From: Thermomonas paludicola
GTDB taxonomy: Bacteria > Pseudomonadota > Gammaproteobacteria > Xanthomonadales > Xanthomonadaceae
Assembly: GCF_024498955.1 (NCBI RefSeq)
Contig: NZ_CP093311.1
Span: forward strand, 1,922,001-1,986,000
Reading direction: 5' to 3'
Length of the DNA: 64,000 bases
In this document: piece after piece, positions 1-10,665 of the stretch
Layout of the letters: each line of letters begins with the position of its first letter
How positions within the stretch are numbered: the first letter of the stretch is position 1
The notes under the pieces: generated by a model
What the model saw: the letters and a program-made list of their open reading frames with translations, nothing else
The model's database searches: none
What the model was told of the DNA's origin: nothing
Translations under genes and position numbers: made by a program

Positions 1-438
1 CAGACTCTCCATGCCCCATTCCTTGCGAGCCGTGTTGAACACATGGCTCAGGATCTGGAGCCGGCGCAGCACGGATGCTGGCGCAAGTTCCTTCAGCCAC
101 CTGTCACGCAGGGCGGCGACGTCGGAGCCGCGGATTCGGGAAACCATCCGGGACGCCAACTCGGTCTGCCGCCAAGTGTTGAGGAAGGACACTTCCCGCT
201 CATAGCTGCGTTTGCGAGGCGAGACCTCCTTTTCGTAGCGGTCGAGGAGCTCACGCAGGGTTGTGTTCTCTGCTTCGCTGCGATCCAGCCAGACGCCTCG
301 CGCCATCTCCGACTCGATCATCTGTGACCAAGCCTCTGCTTCGGCCTTGGTCTCGAACGTCTTGCTCTGAACCGGCCACCCCTTCCGGCGGATCTGGGCC
401 TCCCACTGGCACGGCCCTCGCTTTCGCAGCGTTGCCAT
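1..438 (-). CDS. tyrosine recombinase (phage-type integrase), N-terminal part, runs off the window
   Basis: The reverse-strand frame opens at an ATG (complement of 436-438) and stays open for 146 codons to the window edge. The product starts MATLRKR and contains [20 protein letters not shown] and the SAM-like core-binding region [13 protein letters not shown]...[18 protein letters not shown]. This is the usual N-terminal arm-binding plus core-binding architecture of genomic-island and phage integrases. The catalytic domain (R-H-R-Y) would lie outside the window. The gene reads away from a tRNA-Ala 3' fragment 126 bp upstream, the normal setting for an integrase next to its attachment site. 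Family assignment is from motif pattern only; specificity for tRNA-Ala is inferred from position. Confidence 0.88.
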
Positions 439-462
439 TGTCTTCGAGCATCCATCGGTGGC

Positions 463-548
463 TGTGGCAAAATTGTGGCAGAAATAGCTTTTCATCTCAA
501 CCAGAATTCATTAAACCCTCTATACGTAAGGGTTTCAGCCAGAATCCA
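463..548. repeat. short direct and inverted repeats between int and the att junction (possible arm-type/Xis sites)
   Basis: TGTGGCA occurs twice, at 463-469 and 474-480, exactly 11 bp (one helical turn) apart. CCAGAATTCA (501-510) recurs as CCAGAATCCA at 539-548. Between them lies an inverted repeat, AAACCCT (513-519) and AGGGTTT (529-535), with a 9-nt loop. Clusters of short repeats between an integrase gene and its attachment core are typical arm-type or excisionase binding sites. The role here is inferred from position; the hairpin could also be part of the int promoter region. Confidence 0.5.
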
Positions 549-563
549 AAGGATCCGATTTTC

Positions 564-611
564 TCATTCGCAATGACGAGGTCGGGAGTTCGATCCTCCC
601 TGGCTCCACCA
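564..611 (+). other. attachment-site junction carrying the 3' part of tRNA-Ala(CGC)
   Basis: The sequence fits tRNA positions ~29-76. Anticodon loop TTCGCAA is at 567-573 (anticodon CGC), the 3' anticodon stem at 574-578, variable loop AGGTC, T-stem GGGAG, T-loop TTCGATC, stem CTCCC, acceptor strand TGGCTCC and ACCA at 608-611. The U at position 70 of the acceptor strand matches the G3:U70 alanine identity pair. The 5' acceptor, D-arm and outer anticodon-stem pairs are missing: the bases at 562-563 no longer pair with 577-578. This is what remains on one side when an element inserts into the 3' half of a tRNA gene; an intact copy is expected at the other element end, outside the window. Confidence 0.8.
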
Positions 612-624
612 ATATCCAAACGTC

Positions 625-656
625 AACGCCTGCCATTTCGGCGGGCGTTTTCGTTT
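625..656 (+). terminator. rho-independent terminator downstream of the tRNA-Ala fragment
   Basis: A 10-bp stem, AACGCCTGCC (625-634) with GGCGGGCGTT (640-649, one G-T pair), closes a 5-nt ATTTC loop and runs into TTTTCGTTT. It lies 13 bp after the tRNA CCA, where the terminator of the original tRNA-Ala gene should be. This supports 612 onward being native chromosome. Confidence 0.8.
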
Positions 657-809
657 GCGGTGGCAGCACGCATTCGCCCATCCCGGCATCTCCGGCACCC
701 TGCCCGGCATTCAAGGTTCCAGCGCACGTGGCGATATAGTTGGTGGAGGTCGTGCCGCGGGCGTCGGGCCGTGCCCCGTCCGCGCCGAACCACGAACCGG
801 GGTACACGC

Positions 810-3494
810 ATGCGCAATATCGGGGCAGGAATGACGTCGATCGTGGCGCGCACGGCGCTGGTGCTTGGCATCGTTGCCACGCTGTGCTTCGCCGGGGCCG
901 CCTGGATGATCCAGAAGAAGGCGGCGCAGGTGCAGGAAGCCACCGCACTGGACGAACTGGAACAGCTGGCGCGGGCCGAAGCCGCCAAGGTGCGCGGCTC
1001 CACCACCGAGACCCTGTCGCGCGTGCGCGGCCTGGCCGACGCCACCCAGGCGATCATGGTCCGTGGCAACGGCGAGCGTGGCGAGGCCTCTGCGCTGGTG
1101 CGCCGTTTTGCCGAATCCGACCCGGCGGTGTTGGGCTACTGGCTGGAACTGGAGCCCAACGGGTTCGACGGACAGGATGCCAAATTCGCGCGCAGCTGGC
1201 CCAACGGCGAGCCCGACGCCGACGGACTGAAAGCCTTCGTCGCCACGCTGCAACCGGGGCAACAAGTCAGCACCGACGCCGGCCGGATGTCGGTGTACTG
1301 GACCCGTTCTGCTGCAGGCGAAGTCTCGCTGCAGGATGCGGTGGGCGGCGGAAACGATCTCAAGGTCGAAGGCCCGGACGCCGAAAAATATTACGCTGCG
1401 GTGCGTGAGCGCGGCGACGAGCTGATGTTCGAGCCCTATTCCGATGATGTTTCGGGCAAACAGGTGCTGATGACCAGCCTGATGGTGCCGCTCAAGCTGG
1501 ACGGCCGTTTCCGCGGCGTGGCCGGCGCCGATATCAGCCTGGATGCGATCCAGGCCAGCCTGGCGAAAGTGCGCCCCTACCAGCGCGGCGTGGTGCGCCT
1601 GCTGTCGCCGAAGGGGCTGGTGCTGGCCGCGCCGGAAAAAGAATTGCTGGGCAAACCATGGAAGCAAAACCTGGACGCCGTGCTGGCGGCGGTGGCCGAA
1701 GGCAAGACCGTGCGCCAACGCGAGTTCGGCGCGGTGGTTGGCAGTGAGGTGTTCCGCGTCTATGTGCCGGTCACCGTGGGTCACGCGCCGGACGCCTTCG
1801 TGCTGATGGTATCGGCCCCGGTCGATACGGTGATGGCGGGCGTGGCGCAGGTACGCAACCGGGCGCTGCTGGTTGGCGCGCTCAGCGTGCTGGTGCTGGT
1901 GCTGGTGGTCGCGGTGCTGCTGCGCACACTGGTTGGCGCCCCCCTGCGCGGCATCGTGCAGGGCGTGAACGCGGTGGCCGGCGGGCAGCTGGATTACCCC
2001 ATCGCCGCCGGTGGCGACGACGAAGTCGGCCAGGTGTCGCGCGCGCTGCGAAAGATGCAGACCGATCTGAAAGCGCGCCTGGACACCGAACGCAAGATTG
2101 CCGCCGAGAACCTGCGCGTGCGCATCGCCCTGGACAATGCCGGCACCGCGATGCTGATCGCGGACGCCGACGGTCACGTGGCTTACGCCAACCCGGCCAT
2201 GCGCAACCTGCTCGGGCTGCACCGCCAAATCCTTGCGCGCCACCTGCCACGGGCCAACCTCAAGCAGCTGGAAGGCCAGCCGCTGGCACTGCTGCAGCCG
2301 TCCAGCAGCACGGATCTGGGCCGCATCGAGGCGATCGAACAGCGCGAGCTGGTGTTCGGCAATGCCGTCTTTGTGCAGACCGCCGCGCCCGTCATCTCCC
2401 CGGCCGGCGAACGCCTGGGCGTGGTGGTGGAGTGGCGCGATCGCAGCCAGGAAGTCGCGGTGGAATCGGAAGTCGGTGCGGTCATCGAGGCCGCCGCCGC
2501 CGGCGATTTGTCCAGACGCATCGATCTTGCCGGCAAGAACGGCTTCTTCCTCCACCTCGCCGAGGGCGTGGACAGCATGCTGGACACCAACGCCGCGACC
2601 ATTGCCGACGTGCAGCGCGTGCTTGGTGCGCTGGCCGAAGGCGATCTCACCCAGCGCATCACCGCCGACTACCACGGCGTGTTCGGGCGCATGCGCGACG
2701 ACACCAATGCGACCGTCGAGCACCTGACCGAAACCATGCAGCGCGTGCGCCGCGCGGTCGATTCCATCCACAGCGCAGCCCGCGAAATCGCTGCCGGCAA
2801 CAGCGACCTGTCGACCCGCTCCGAACAGCAGGCTGCCAGCCTGGAGGAGACCGCTGCGTCGATGGAAGAATTGACCTCGACGGTCAAGAACAACGCCGAG
2901 TCCTCCAACCAGGCGCGCCAGCTCGCCACCGGCGCCGCCGACATCGCCTCACGCGGCGGCAAGGCGGTGGACCAGGTGATCGAGCAGATGACCGGCATCA
3001 CTGCTGCATCTCGGCAGATTGAAAACATCATCGGGGTGATCGATGGCATCGCCTTCCAGACCAACATCCTGGCCCTGAACGCCGCGGTGGAAGCCGCGCG
3101 TGCAGGCGAACAGGGCCGCGGCTTCGCGGTGGTGGCCAGCGAGGTGCGCTCGCTGGCGCAACGCTCCGCCGAGGCGGCGAAGGAGATCAAGGGCCTGATC
3201 GGCAGCTCGGCGCAACGGGTGGACCAAGGCGCGGCAATGGTTGCGGTGGCCGGCAACACCATGCGCGAAATCGTGGAGTCGGTACGCCGGGTCAGCGACC
3301 TGATGGCGGAAATCTCGGCCGCCTCGCAGGAGCAGAGCAGCGGCATCGAGCAGGTCAACCAGACCATCACCCACATGGACGGCGTCACCCAGCAAAACGC
3401 GGCGATGGTGGAACAGGCCACGGCGGCCGCGCACTCGCTGCAGGAACAGGCCGACGACCTCGCCGCAGCGGTAGCCGTGTTCCGCATGCAATGA
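810..3494 (+). CDS. methyl-accepting chemotaxis protein (Cache-HAMP-PAS-HAMP-MA)
   Basis: Transmembrane chemoreceptor of 894 aa. A first membrane segment (about residues 8-34) is followed by a long periplasmic region (about 35-350) of dCache type. A second membrane helix rich in Leu/Val lies at about 352-374, then a HAMP linker, a PAS-like segment (about 437-560, with [13 protein letters not shown]), a second HAMP (about 602-655, GDLTQRI) and the MA signalling hairpin with tip [20 protein letters not shown] near 740-760. There is no C-terminal CheR/CheB pentapeptide. The start follows GGGG at a plausible distance; an in-frame ATG 21 bp downstream is an alternative. The PAS-to-MA half resembles the second receptor at 24695-27037. 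No che or flagellar operon is nearby, so it is an orphan receptor; its ligand is unknown. Confidence 0.92.
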
Positions 3495-3560
3495 CCCGTT
3501 CAAGGCCCGAACGAGCGCGCCACGCCGCAGCTGTCATGGGGCGCCCCTGGACGCCAGGCA

Positions 3561-3587
3561 ACAAAAACCCGCCTGGATGGCGGGTTT
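3561..3587 (-). terminator. terminator of the tRNA-Thr transcript
   Basis: A perfect 9-bp stem AAACCCGCC/GGCGGGTTT with loop TGGAT. Read on the minus strand it is followed by a T-rich tail (TTTTTG, from 3561-3567), so it terminates leftward transcription coming from the tRNA. It may also block read-through from the chemoreceptor on the plus strand. Confidence 0.75.
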
Positions 3588-3630
3588 CATGAACGTCAGG
3601 CGTCCGTGCGGACTGCCTGGCACCGGTACA

Positions 3631-3706
3631 TGGTGCCGGAAATAGGAATCGAACCTACGACCTACGCATTACGAATGCGCCGCTCTACCAACTGAGCTAT
3701 TCCGGC
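3631..3706 (-). tRNA. tRNA-Thr (anticodon CGT)
   Basis: The minus strand folds as a complete 76-nt tRNA with encoded CCA. It shows acceptor GCCGGAA/TTCCGGC, D-arm GCTCAGTTGGTAGAGC, anticodon arm GCGCA-TTCGTAA-TGCGT with anticodon CGT, variable loop AGGTC, and T-arm GTAGG-TTCGATT-CCTAT. Anticodon CGT reads ACG threonine codons. A TACAAT hexamer on the minus strand (3717-3722), just upstream of the 5' end, is a likely -10 box; no good -35 is visible because that region overlaps the ispH 3' end. Confidence 0.96.
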
Positions 3707-3734
3707 AAGGTCGGCGATTGTATCGCCCGCCGGC

Positions 3735-4685
3735 TCAGTCCGCCAGCGGGCGAAGCTCTTTTGGCAGGGCAAAGATCATGTTTTCCGGATCGCCGTGCAG
3801 TTCGCGCACATTGGCGGCGCCGAGTTCCTGCAACCGGGCCAGCACGCCCTGGACCAGCACTTCGGGGGCGGAAGCCCCGGCCGTGACGCCCACCCGAACG
3901 CCACCCGCCACCCAGGCCGGGTCGATTTCATCGGCACCGTCGATCAGCCAGGCGCGCGCCCCTTCGCGCTGTGCCAATTCGCGCAGGCGGTTGGAATTGG
4001 ACGAGTTCGGCGAACCGACCACCAGCACCACTTCGCAGCCGCTGCGCACCAGCTCGCGCACGGCGTCCTGGCGATTCTGGGTGGCATAGCAGATATCGTC
4101 GTGCTTGGGCCCCTGGATGGCCGGGAACTTCAGCTTGAGCGCGGCGATGATCTCGCGCGTGTCATCCACGCTGAGCGTGGTCTGCGTGGTGTAGGCGCAG
4201 TTGCCGGGCTGCTTGAGCTGCAGCGCGGCGACATCCTCGATGTCCTCGACCAGATGGATCTCGCCATCATTGCCACGCTGGCCCCACTGCCCCATGGTGC
4301 CTTCCACCTCGGGATGCCCGGCATGGCCGATCAGCACCATGTCGCGGCCGCTCCGGCTCTGCCGGCTGACCTCCAGGTGCACCTTGGTGACCAGCGGGCA
4401 AGTGGCATCGAACACCTTCAAGCCGCGGCGCTTGGCTTCGGCGCGGACCGCCTGCGACACGCCGTGGGCGCTGAAAATCACGGTGGCGCCGTCCGGCACT
4501 TCGTCGAGTTCCTCGACGAACACCGCGCCGCGCGCCTTCAGGTCATCGACCACGAATTTGTTGTGCACCACTTCATGGCGCACGTAGATCGGCGCACCGA
4601 AAATCTCCAGGGTCCGCTTGACGATTTCGATGGCGCGATCGACGCCGGCGCAGAAGCCGCGGGGGTTGGCAAGCAGCACGCTCAT
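3735..4685 (-). CDS. ispH: 4-hydroxy-3-methylbut-2-enyl diphosphate reductase
   Basis: Last step of the MEP isoprenoid pathway: reduction of HMBPP to IPP and DMAPP, using a [4Fe-4S] cluster. The product is 316 aa, normal family length. The three cluster cysteines are visible in ANPRGFCAG (Cys12), [12 protein letters not shown] (near 96) and [11 protein letters not shown] (near 198). The substrate-binding motif [11 protein letters not shown] is present. The ATG at 4685 gives the canonical [14 protein letters not shown] start and lies 7 bp after the lspA stop. It is the last gene of murJ-ribF-ileS-lspA-ispH. The upstream pathway enzyme Dxs is also in the window (28348-30255). Confidence 0.97.
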
Positions 4686-9033: not shown

Positions 9034-10665
9034 TCAGTGCTCGCGGAAATCGCGTGGGCGGAAGCCCAGCACCAGCATCGCCAGCGCATAGCTCACTGCC
9101 CCGCCGCCCACCAGCGCGCCCAACCAACCCACCCGCTGCCATTTCCCGGCCACGGTGAAGTCGGGCGCCAGGTGCAGCCCCGCCAGCACCACCATCGCCA
9201 TCGCCGCATTGGCCAGCAGCGCACGCAACAGGAAGCGCCTCCAGCCCGGCTGCAGGTCGAATACATCGGCCTTGCGCAGCCAGCGCCAGAGCAGGGCCAG
9301 GTTGAGATAGCTGGACAGTGCGGACGCCAGGCCCAGCGCGAAATGCAGGCCCGGCACCCGCGCCAGGGTCGCCAGTACTCCGCCATCCCGCGCCGCCTCC
9401 GGCACCCACAGCTGATACAGCAGGGCAAGGATGCCGACGTTGAACGCCATGTTGGCCACCATGGCCACCAGCCCGGCGCGCACCGGCGTGCGCGTGTCCT
9501 GCCGCGCATAAAACGCGGGCAACACGGTTTTCACCAGGGCAAAGGCGGGCAAGCCGAAACTCAGGCCAAACACCGACAGCGCGGTCATGCGCGCGGCTTC
9601 GGCGGTGAATTTGCCGTATTGGAAGATGGTCGCGACCAGCGGCAGCGACAGCAGCATCAGGCCCAGCATCGCCGGCAGGATGATGATCAGCGTGGTGCGC
9701 AGCCCCCAGTCCAGCGATTTCGAAAACCCGGCGCGATCGGTGTTGACGTGGTGGCGCGACAGGGTCGGCAGGATCACCGTTCCCAGCGCAATCCCGAACA
9801 CGCCCAGCGGGAATTCCAGGAACCGATCGGCGGTGGACAACCAGCTTTGCGAGCCATGCACCAGCATCGCGGCGATGAAGGTGTCGAACAGCAGGTTGAC
9901 TTGCGCCACCGACGACCCCAGCAGGGTGGGCACCATCAGCCGCATCACCCTGCGGATGTCCGGGTGCCGCCAACCCCAGCGCGGCAGCGCCAGCAGGTCA
10001 AGCTGGGCCAGCTGCGGCAGCTGGAACAAGAGCTGCAGGACACCCGCGGCCAGGATCGCCCAGCCCATGGCCATGATCGGCGGATCGGTGAATTTCGAGC
10101 CCCACAGCGCGCCGGCGATCATGCACAGGTTGAGGATGATCGGGGTGAACGCCGGCCAGCCGAACCGGTGATAACTGTTGAGCGCGCCGGCCGCCAGCGC
10201 GGTCAACGAGACGAACAGCAGGAACGGGAACGTCAACCGCAACAGATCGATGATCAGCTGGTTCTGCCCGGGCGCGGGGTCGGCCTGGGTAAACGCCGTG
10301 GCCAGCTGCGGCGCGAAGATCATGCCCAGCGCGGTGACCAGGAGCAGCACGCCGCCCAGGGTCCCGGCGGTACGCGCCATCAGCGCCTTCAACGCATCGT
10401 GGCTGCGGGTTTCCTTGATTTCGGTGAATACCGGCACGAAGGCGGTGGAAAACGAGCCTTCCGCAAACAGGCGACGCATGAAGTTCGGGATGCGGAACGC
10501 GACCCAGAACGCATCGGTCATCCAGTTGGTGCCGAAGGTGGTGTTGAACACCTGGTCGCGCACCAGCCCGAACACCCGGCTGATCATCGTCATGCCGCCG
10601 AACGACAGCACCCCGCGCACCATGCTGCGTGGCTTGCCGCCGTCCTGCGCTGCCCCTGGATTCAT
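9034..10665 (-). CDS. murJ: lipid II flippase
   Basis: Multi-pass inner-membrane flippase (MurJ/MviN, MOP superfamily) that moves lipid II to the periplasm for peptidoglycan synthesis. The product is 543 aa with about 14 hydrophobic segments. The conserved beginning is GGMTMISRVFGLVRDQVFNTTFG followed by NFMRRLFAEGSFSTAFVPVF. The ATG at 10665 (MNPGAAQ) is chosen; an internal ATG at 10623 (MVRGVLSFGG) is possible, and neither has a strong Shine-Dalgarno. It is divergent from rpsT, a widely conserved arrangement, and is the first gene of the minus operon ending in ispH. Confidence 0.96.
   Translation of the reverse strand: MNPGAAQDGGKPRSMVRGVLSFGGMTMISRVFGLVRDQVFNTTFGTNWMTDAFWVAFRIPNFMRRLFAEGSFSTAFVPVFTEIKETRSHDALKALMARTAGTLGGVLLLVTALGMIFAPQLATAFTQADPAPGQNQLIIDLLRLTFPFLLFVSLTALAAGALNSYHRFGWPAFTPIILNLCMIAGALWGSKFTDPPIMAMGWAILAAGVLQLLFQLPQLAQLDLLALPRWGWRHPDIRRVMRLMVPTLLGSSVAQVNLLFDTFIAAMLVHGSQSWLSTADRFLEFPLGVFGIALGTVILPTLSRHHVNTDRAGFSKSLDWGLRTTLIIILPAMLGLMLLSLPLVATIFQYGKFTAEAARMTALSVFGLSFGLPAFALVKTVLPAFYARQDTRTPVRAGLVAMVANMAFNVGILALLYQLWVPEAARDGGVLATLARVPGLHFALGLASALSSYLNLALLWRWLRKADVFDLQPGWRRFLLRALLANAAMAMVVLAGLHLAPDFTVAGKWQRVGWLGALVGGGAVSYALAMLVLGFRPRDFREH

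Follow-up and report, generated by a model that had tools for sequence, protein, structure and literature searches.

The window analysed here, a stretch of 64,000 nucleotides from the chromosome of Thermomonas paludicola (G000:C1:1922001-1986000, in a genome of 2,717,354 bases on one contig), opens with part of an integrase gene, a cluster of short repeats, the 3' part of a tRNA-Ala gene and an inverted repeat. An earlier note had read these features as the right boundary of an integrative element in tRNA-Ala(CGC), the inverted repeat being the terminator of the tRNA itself. All four features were found in the order described, with the terminator supported by stem-loops in two related genomes (G008 and G009). 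The question is whether the tRNA fragment marks the end of an element and, if so, where the other end lies, how the insertion was made and what was inserted. The coordinates of the features are collected in Table 1.

Table 1. Features at the right end of the island and the first gene beyond it, in window coordinates.
Feature	Positions	Strand	Details
Tyrosine integrase gene, 5' part	1..438	-	Continues left to G000:C1:1921302; PF00589, E 2.5e-15; phrog_1 integrase, E 1.9e-53
Candidate integrase arm-type sites, TGTGGC-N5-TGTGGC	463..479	+	Short repeats TGTGGCAAAA and TGTGGCAGAA at 463 and 474
Predicted sigma-70-like integrase promoter	472..500	-	Overlaps the candidate arm-type sites; consensus scan, 9/12 matches, TG before second hexamer
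Further short repeats	497..548		Direct: TCAACCAGAATTCA at 497-510 and TCAGCCAGAATCCA at 535-548; inverted: AAACCCT/AGGGTTT at 513-519/529-535
attR core: displaced tRNA-Ala(CGC) 3' half, spanning anticodon loop to CCA	567..611	+	45-nt exact direct repeat
Native tRNA terminator, left on the chromosome side	617..657	+	Inverted repeat; 10-pair stem at 625-649, then T-rich DNA
First chromosomal gene past the island, presumed methyl-accepting chemotaxis protein	810..3494	+	78% identical gene in G016

A search of the genome with window positions 1-800 gave three matching places at E <= 0.001, namely the window itself, C1:1898699-1898755 (95%) and tRNA-Ala(GGC) (85%). The second of these falls on an intact tRNA-Ala(CGC) gene at C1:1898671-1898746 (plus strand), which holds the other copy of the repeat 23.9 kb to the left of the window copy and in the same orientation as the displaced half. 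The intact gene and the repeat of positions 564-611 that the earlier note had proposed to look for on the left are thus present, with a difference at position 566. The exact shared block consists of 45 nt (window 567-611, corresponding to C1:1898702-1898746) and runs from tRNA position 32, where the anticodon loop begins, to the CCA end. Window positions 564-565 also match the intact tRNA, and position 566 is mismatched (A versus G, tRNA position 31). Since the identity ends at this mismatch, homology is lost at the junction between the anticodon stem and loop, in agreement with the proposal that it is lost in the anticodon-stem region. Likewise, the DNA to the left belongs to an island of a mobile kind, as had been proposed, but the native chromosome resumes within 567-611 and not from near 564. 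Chance is excluded as the source of a 45-base exact repeat. The island between the two tRNA copies is 23,820 bases in length, and the GC content of this stretch including both copies is 0.596, compared with 0.671 in the left flank.

An intact tRNA gene at one end, a 3' fragment of the same orientation at the other, a tyrosine integrase inside and a length within 2-200 kb are the features by which Islander defines an island, and all are found here; a block of identity that begins at tRNA position 32 places the island in the anticodon-centred class A. As far as class A is described in the sections of the Islander report available to us (PMC4383910), its islands share with the present one a rebuilt tRNA at one end, a displaced 3' fragment at the other, an internal tyrosine integrase and a crossover in the anticodon loop; we see no essential difference, the host and the cargo being what differs. 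The earlier note had also held anticodon-loop sites to be less common than sites in the T arm. This must be rejected on the counts in Table 1 of the same report, as seen in those sections, which gives 2083 anticodon-centred islands and 1836 in the T-stem region (PMC4383910).

The state of the locus before insertion can be seen in relatives. The query for the empty site consisted of 602 bases made by joining the two flanks, in which the tRNA ends at position 346. It matched 60 of 60 genomes, mostly via the tRNA itself, and this tally was therefore left out; of the 59 other genomes, G008 and G009 were the two in which gene order was checked and showed an empty site with a similar terminator. Both match query positions 4-390, which extends beyond the tRNA and into the native terminator, and both carry rnd, tRNA-Ala(CGC), tRNA-Thr, ispH, lspA and ileS in native order without the island. 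The names rnd, ispH, lspA and ileS are our presumption from the character of the sequences; rnd gave no match in PHROGs. The uninterrupted, element-free sites that the earlier note had suggested looking for therefore exist, in two genomes of the genus. They are not identical to the site in the window, since both are without the chemotaxis gene, for which a counterpart was found only in G016 among the 13 stretches that were fetched; we take this gene to encode a methyl-accepting chemotaxis protein from its sequence character. The comparison also identifies the inverted repeat behind the displaced half. A terminator scan performed at chance level (one found versus 0.9 expected from shuffles), and the repeat is read as the native terminator because a similar stem-loop lies directly 3' of the uninterrupted tRNA in G008 and G009.

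Some further variation was observed around this site. In G016 (L040:1008-12383), about 11 kb without a second tRNA fragment lie between tRNA-Ala and the chemotaxis gene, possibly as another insertion. The tRNA-Ala(CGC) gene behind rnd varies within the genus, with starts of GGGGCCA, GGGGCGG and GGGGCTG and differences in both halves (L038-L040, L042-L047). A tRNA-Thr(CGT) gene, the other tRNA type used by related integrases, lies at window 3631-3706, 3 kb from the island, and a search of window 1-4000 with Rfam gave only this tRNA-Thr and low-scoring matches.

A tRNA fragment of this kind might also be a decayed pseudogene or an incidental duplication that lies beside an integrase gene by chance. 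Taken alone, the displaced half could pass for a pseudogene, and ARAGORN calls no complete tRNA at the fragment within window 1-656. However, this explanation deserves practically no credence: 45 identical bases are shared with an intact copy across a block of low GC content, the arm motifs described below are paired, and the intact tRNA at the far end together with the empty sites in relatives already refutes it. We therefore hold it as nearly certain that a genomic island of about 23.8 kb has been inserted into tRNA-Ala(CGC) by its own tyrosine integrase, and that window 1-611 forms the right end (attR) of this island.

The integrase frame is open from an ATG at window 495 in its longest form; however, the start is probably the ATG at 438 (residue 20), because 111 of 120 aligned homologues begin there. 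R215, K242, H329, R332, H354 and Y363/364, which we take to be the catalytic residues of a tyrosine recombinase, are conserved in at least 97% of the set formed by this integrase and the 120 homologues. Judged by this alignment, the island integrase retains what an active tyrosine recombinase would be expected to have at these positions. Among integrases of solved structure there are weak matches, for instance to 1z1b (E 2e-7), presumably lambda integrase. No counterpart at E <= 1e-60 was found in the other 98 of the 99 genomes searched. The promoter in Table 1 was the single one found by a consensus scan, compared with a shuffle mean of 0.1, and such a scan is by itself no evidence of function.

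When both strands of the 23.8-kb island are considered, the motif TGTGGC-N5-TGTGGC is present at exactly two places, one near each end (C1:1898829 and C1:1922463, the latter being window 463), and both pairs have the same orientation. An identically spaced pair lies near the integrase start in 35 of the 78 related loci considered below. These pairs are best read as arm-type integrase sites, and the further repeats at 497-548 are possible accessory-protein sites of the attP arm. Beside the left end lies a frame of 97 amino acids (L004:9247-9540). Homologues of it were found at E <= 1e-4 in 15 of the 78 related loci, and no Pfam family scored above its cut-off, the best match being a DeoR-type helix-turn-helix (E 0.045). 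By position and conservation, its product is the leading candidate for the role of directionality factor. The adjacent non-coding stretch L004:8940-9260 folds better than all of 100 shuffles (z -3.3); a search of 147 other relatives gave a single weak match to it. The longer stretch L004:8940-9540 is unremarkable in its folding (z -1.3) and gave no match to plasmids.

From this arrangement we infer that the island integrase exchanged strands within the anticodon loop (567-573), which is the likely exchange region, the crossover base being indistinguishable within the identical core. The 5' half of the chromosomal tRNA was thereby joined to a 3' half carried by attP, such that a whole tRNA was rebuilt at the left end. 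The island also provided the rebuilt tRNA with a new terminator, a stem-loop located 3' of it (L004:8759-8798). The chromosome's own 3' half and terminator were displaced to window 567-657. Excision would be the reverse reaction, probably aided by the 97-aa protein beside the left end, and the island may be mobile at present.

Related integrases were examined to see their attachment sites, using the best 80 of 153 confirmed loci, of which 78 were analysed (L111 and L117 were dropped, the match being cut at the start of the locus). In 48 of the 78 loci, the 300 bp upstream of the integrase match contain an antisense stretch of an Ala- or Thr-type tRNA that reaches from the anticodon loop to the T arm, and this repeated pairing of integrase and fragment further argues against an incidental origin of the fragment in the window. 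Each of these stretches has TTCGYAATG as its anticodon loop and extends into the T arm, a pattern that marks the presence of the loop and not the limit of homology; the 48 include L055 and L087, in which ARAGORN calls a whole tRNA at the same place. The sense arrangement was found in four loci, and neither arrangement within 300 bp in the remaining 26, some of which, among the more distant members, adjoin other tRNAs (Leu, Met, Arg and Ser). The start of the repeat was measured only where an intact tRNA sits in the same locus, which left 17 rows whose repeat is 14 nt or longer. This start lies at tRNA positions 26-32 in 13 of these rows, ten of which reach the CCA; of the other four, two (L059 and L063) have no more than an interrupted internal match and two (L113, Met, and L123, Arg) start later. 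Together, the 48 stretches and the 13 repeat starts indicate that a large part of the integrase family shares the anticodon-loop site. The integrases of Cupriavidus, Paraburkholderia, Dyella, Rhodanobacter and others (L052-L110) show 46-56% identity to that of the island, whereas the cargo of these loci is unrelated save for scattered restriction, umuDC and repC matches. In L051, the nearest relative among genome contigs, the match to island DNA is confined to the integrase. Among the sources that our literature search covered, which were seen in part, no publication on this exact island or integrase family was found.

The cargo is mosaic. At the right, beside the integrase, lies a type I restriction-modification locus (HsdM, HsdS and HsdR). 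Between HsdS and HsdR, a DUF3800 protein and its partner (L005:14070-15280) match the PADLOC candidates PDC-M04A and PDC-M04B. The island also carries an SRAP protein and UmuD- and UmuC-like proteins, the UmuC-like one falling below the NCBIfam cut-off. Furthermore, a RepA-like AAA protein matches the solved RepA 1g8y (E 1.2e-59), which we take to be that of the RSF1010 origin, and is accompanied by RepC (PF06504, E 3.1e-103), together forming a replication module of the RSF1010/IncQ type. A RepA helicase and a RepC initiator, as expected of an IncQ-type replicon, are thus present, and they adjoin as in RSF1010. In contrast to RSF1010, the island copy is chromosomally integrated, and a Pfam scan of 22 island frames brought up none of RepB primase, oriV iterons and mobilization genes, and no relaxase. 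The RSF1010-type repA and repC lie at L004:9537-11298, near the left att site, and a 21-bp array of 2.6 copies follows repC (L004:11614-11668).

This mixture raises the possibility that the block is a composite of at least two insertions at the same tRNA, in tandem or nested, as might be suggested by the plasmid-type repAC at the left, the restriction locus by the integrase at the right, the large amount of non-coding DNA between them, a GC content ranging from 0.53 to 0.65 in 1.5-kb windows, and the restriction of the L051 match to the integrase. However, a third copy of the tRNA 3' half is absent inside the block, a single integrase occurs among the frames scanned and each end has exactly one arm-motif pair, and we regard a composite as unlikely. 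Still less probable is a prophage or phage satellite in place of a plasmid-like island: although the integrase matches the phage family phrog_1 and several small frames are without identification, no structural or packaging family was found among the nine island proteins scanned against PHROGs, a scan made apart from the restriction proteins and short frames, and RepA, RepC and the RNA described next point to plasmid ancestry.

A non-coding, unannotated kilobase of the island outside the window (G000:C1:1912400-1913420, corresponding to L005:9400-10420) aligns with unannotated stretches of plasmids from Burkholderia, Azotobacter, Acinetobacter, Novacetimonas and E. coli. The copy on the Burkholderia glumae plasmid matches a Polaromonas naphthalenivorans plasmid of 58,808 bases (NC_008761), which is taken to be pPNAP05 from the organism and size. 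In the portion of Roth et al. (2021; PMC8637638) available to us, a circularly permuted (CP) group II RNA is reported on pPNAP05, of 59 kb, and the CP group II ribozyme is stated to have been called T-large RNA formerly. The segments of the island RNA begin with D5/D6-like stems, followed by an AATCC boundary, a short linker and a GGGCGACACGGAAACGG boundary; the permuted order of D5-D6 before D1, with conserved splice-boundary segments, is present across five aligned copies. The domains were named by comparison with the available text of PMC8637638 and not with a covariance model. On this comparison, the kilobase is a circularly permuted group II ribozyme with predicted activity. A reading as an undescribed RNA had been entertained and was dropped, as the plasmid matches together with that text identify the CP group II ribozyme (PMC8637638).

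Other searches with this RNA bear on its distribution. Rfam 15 gave only low-scoring, mostly microRNA-type matches below gathering scores on L005 and did not report the CP RNA; there was no match in 147 other relatives and none in phages, the E. coli copy likewise giving no phage match. The folding z scores of the given and reverse strands are nearly equal (-3.4 versus -3.3), so folding alone cannot tell the strand. In E. coli, the RNA was observed in 21 of 5426 complete genomes at 23 places, all on plasmids (about 3 kb or 27-35 kb), for example at L139:4980-5860 (NZ_CP124463.1), and none of the matches in the 22 listed records coincides with an annotated feature. A divergent neighbour in the island (C1:1911296-1911982, L005:8296-8982) is similar to proteins encoded next to the copies from B. 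glumae, E. coli and Azotobacter; in a comparison of 11 sequences, TTHC007 not among them, the E values ranged from 5e-11 to 3.5e-14. By this resemblance, the neighbouring protein appears to occupy the AcpG position. Its gene is flanked by a 39-bp tandem repeat with inner palindromes (L005:7865-7989) and by a ACTACGTAGT array (L005:9097-9146) with four 20-bp direct repeats (9195-9273). The words tRNA and genomic island are absent from the main text of PMC8637638 in the form available to us; compared with the RNAs reported there, the island copy differs in sitting in a mapped chromosomal island, and its activity is predicted.

The boundary in tRNA-Ala is itself ordinary and belongs to a known kind of element; the mildly unusual part is the presence of IncQ-type replication genes and a CP group II ribozyme within a mapped tRNA island. 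It may tentatively be suggested, as a rather doubtful extension, that this is a plasmid-turned integrative element that would shuttle between tRNA-Ala(CGC) and an extrachromosomal form copied by its IncQ-type RepA and RepC, with a functional CP ribozyme that would make small RNA circles in the plasmid lifestyle. The island is of value in that its limits are exact, both ends and an empty site are available, and its attP can be read. It also shows that a single anticodon-loop site, in tRNA genes for Ala(CGC) and Thr(CGT), is used repeatedly by a broad proteobacterial integrase family, and its cargo adds a mapped chromosomal island to the known places of the CP group II ribozyme.
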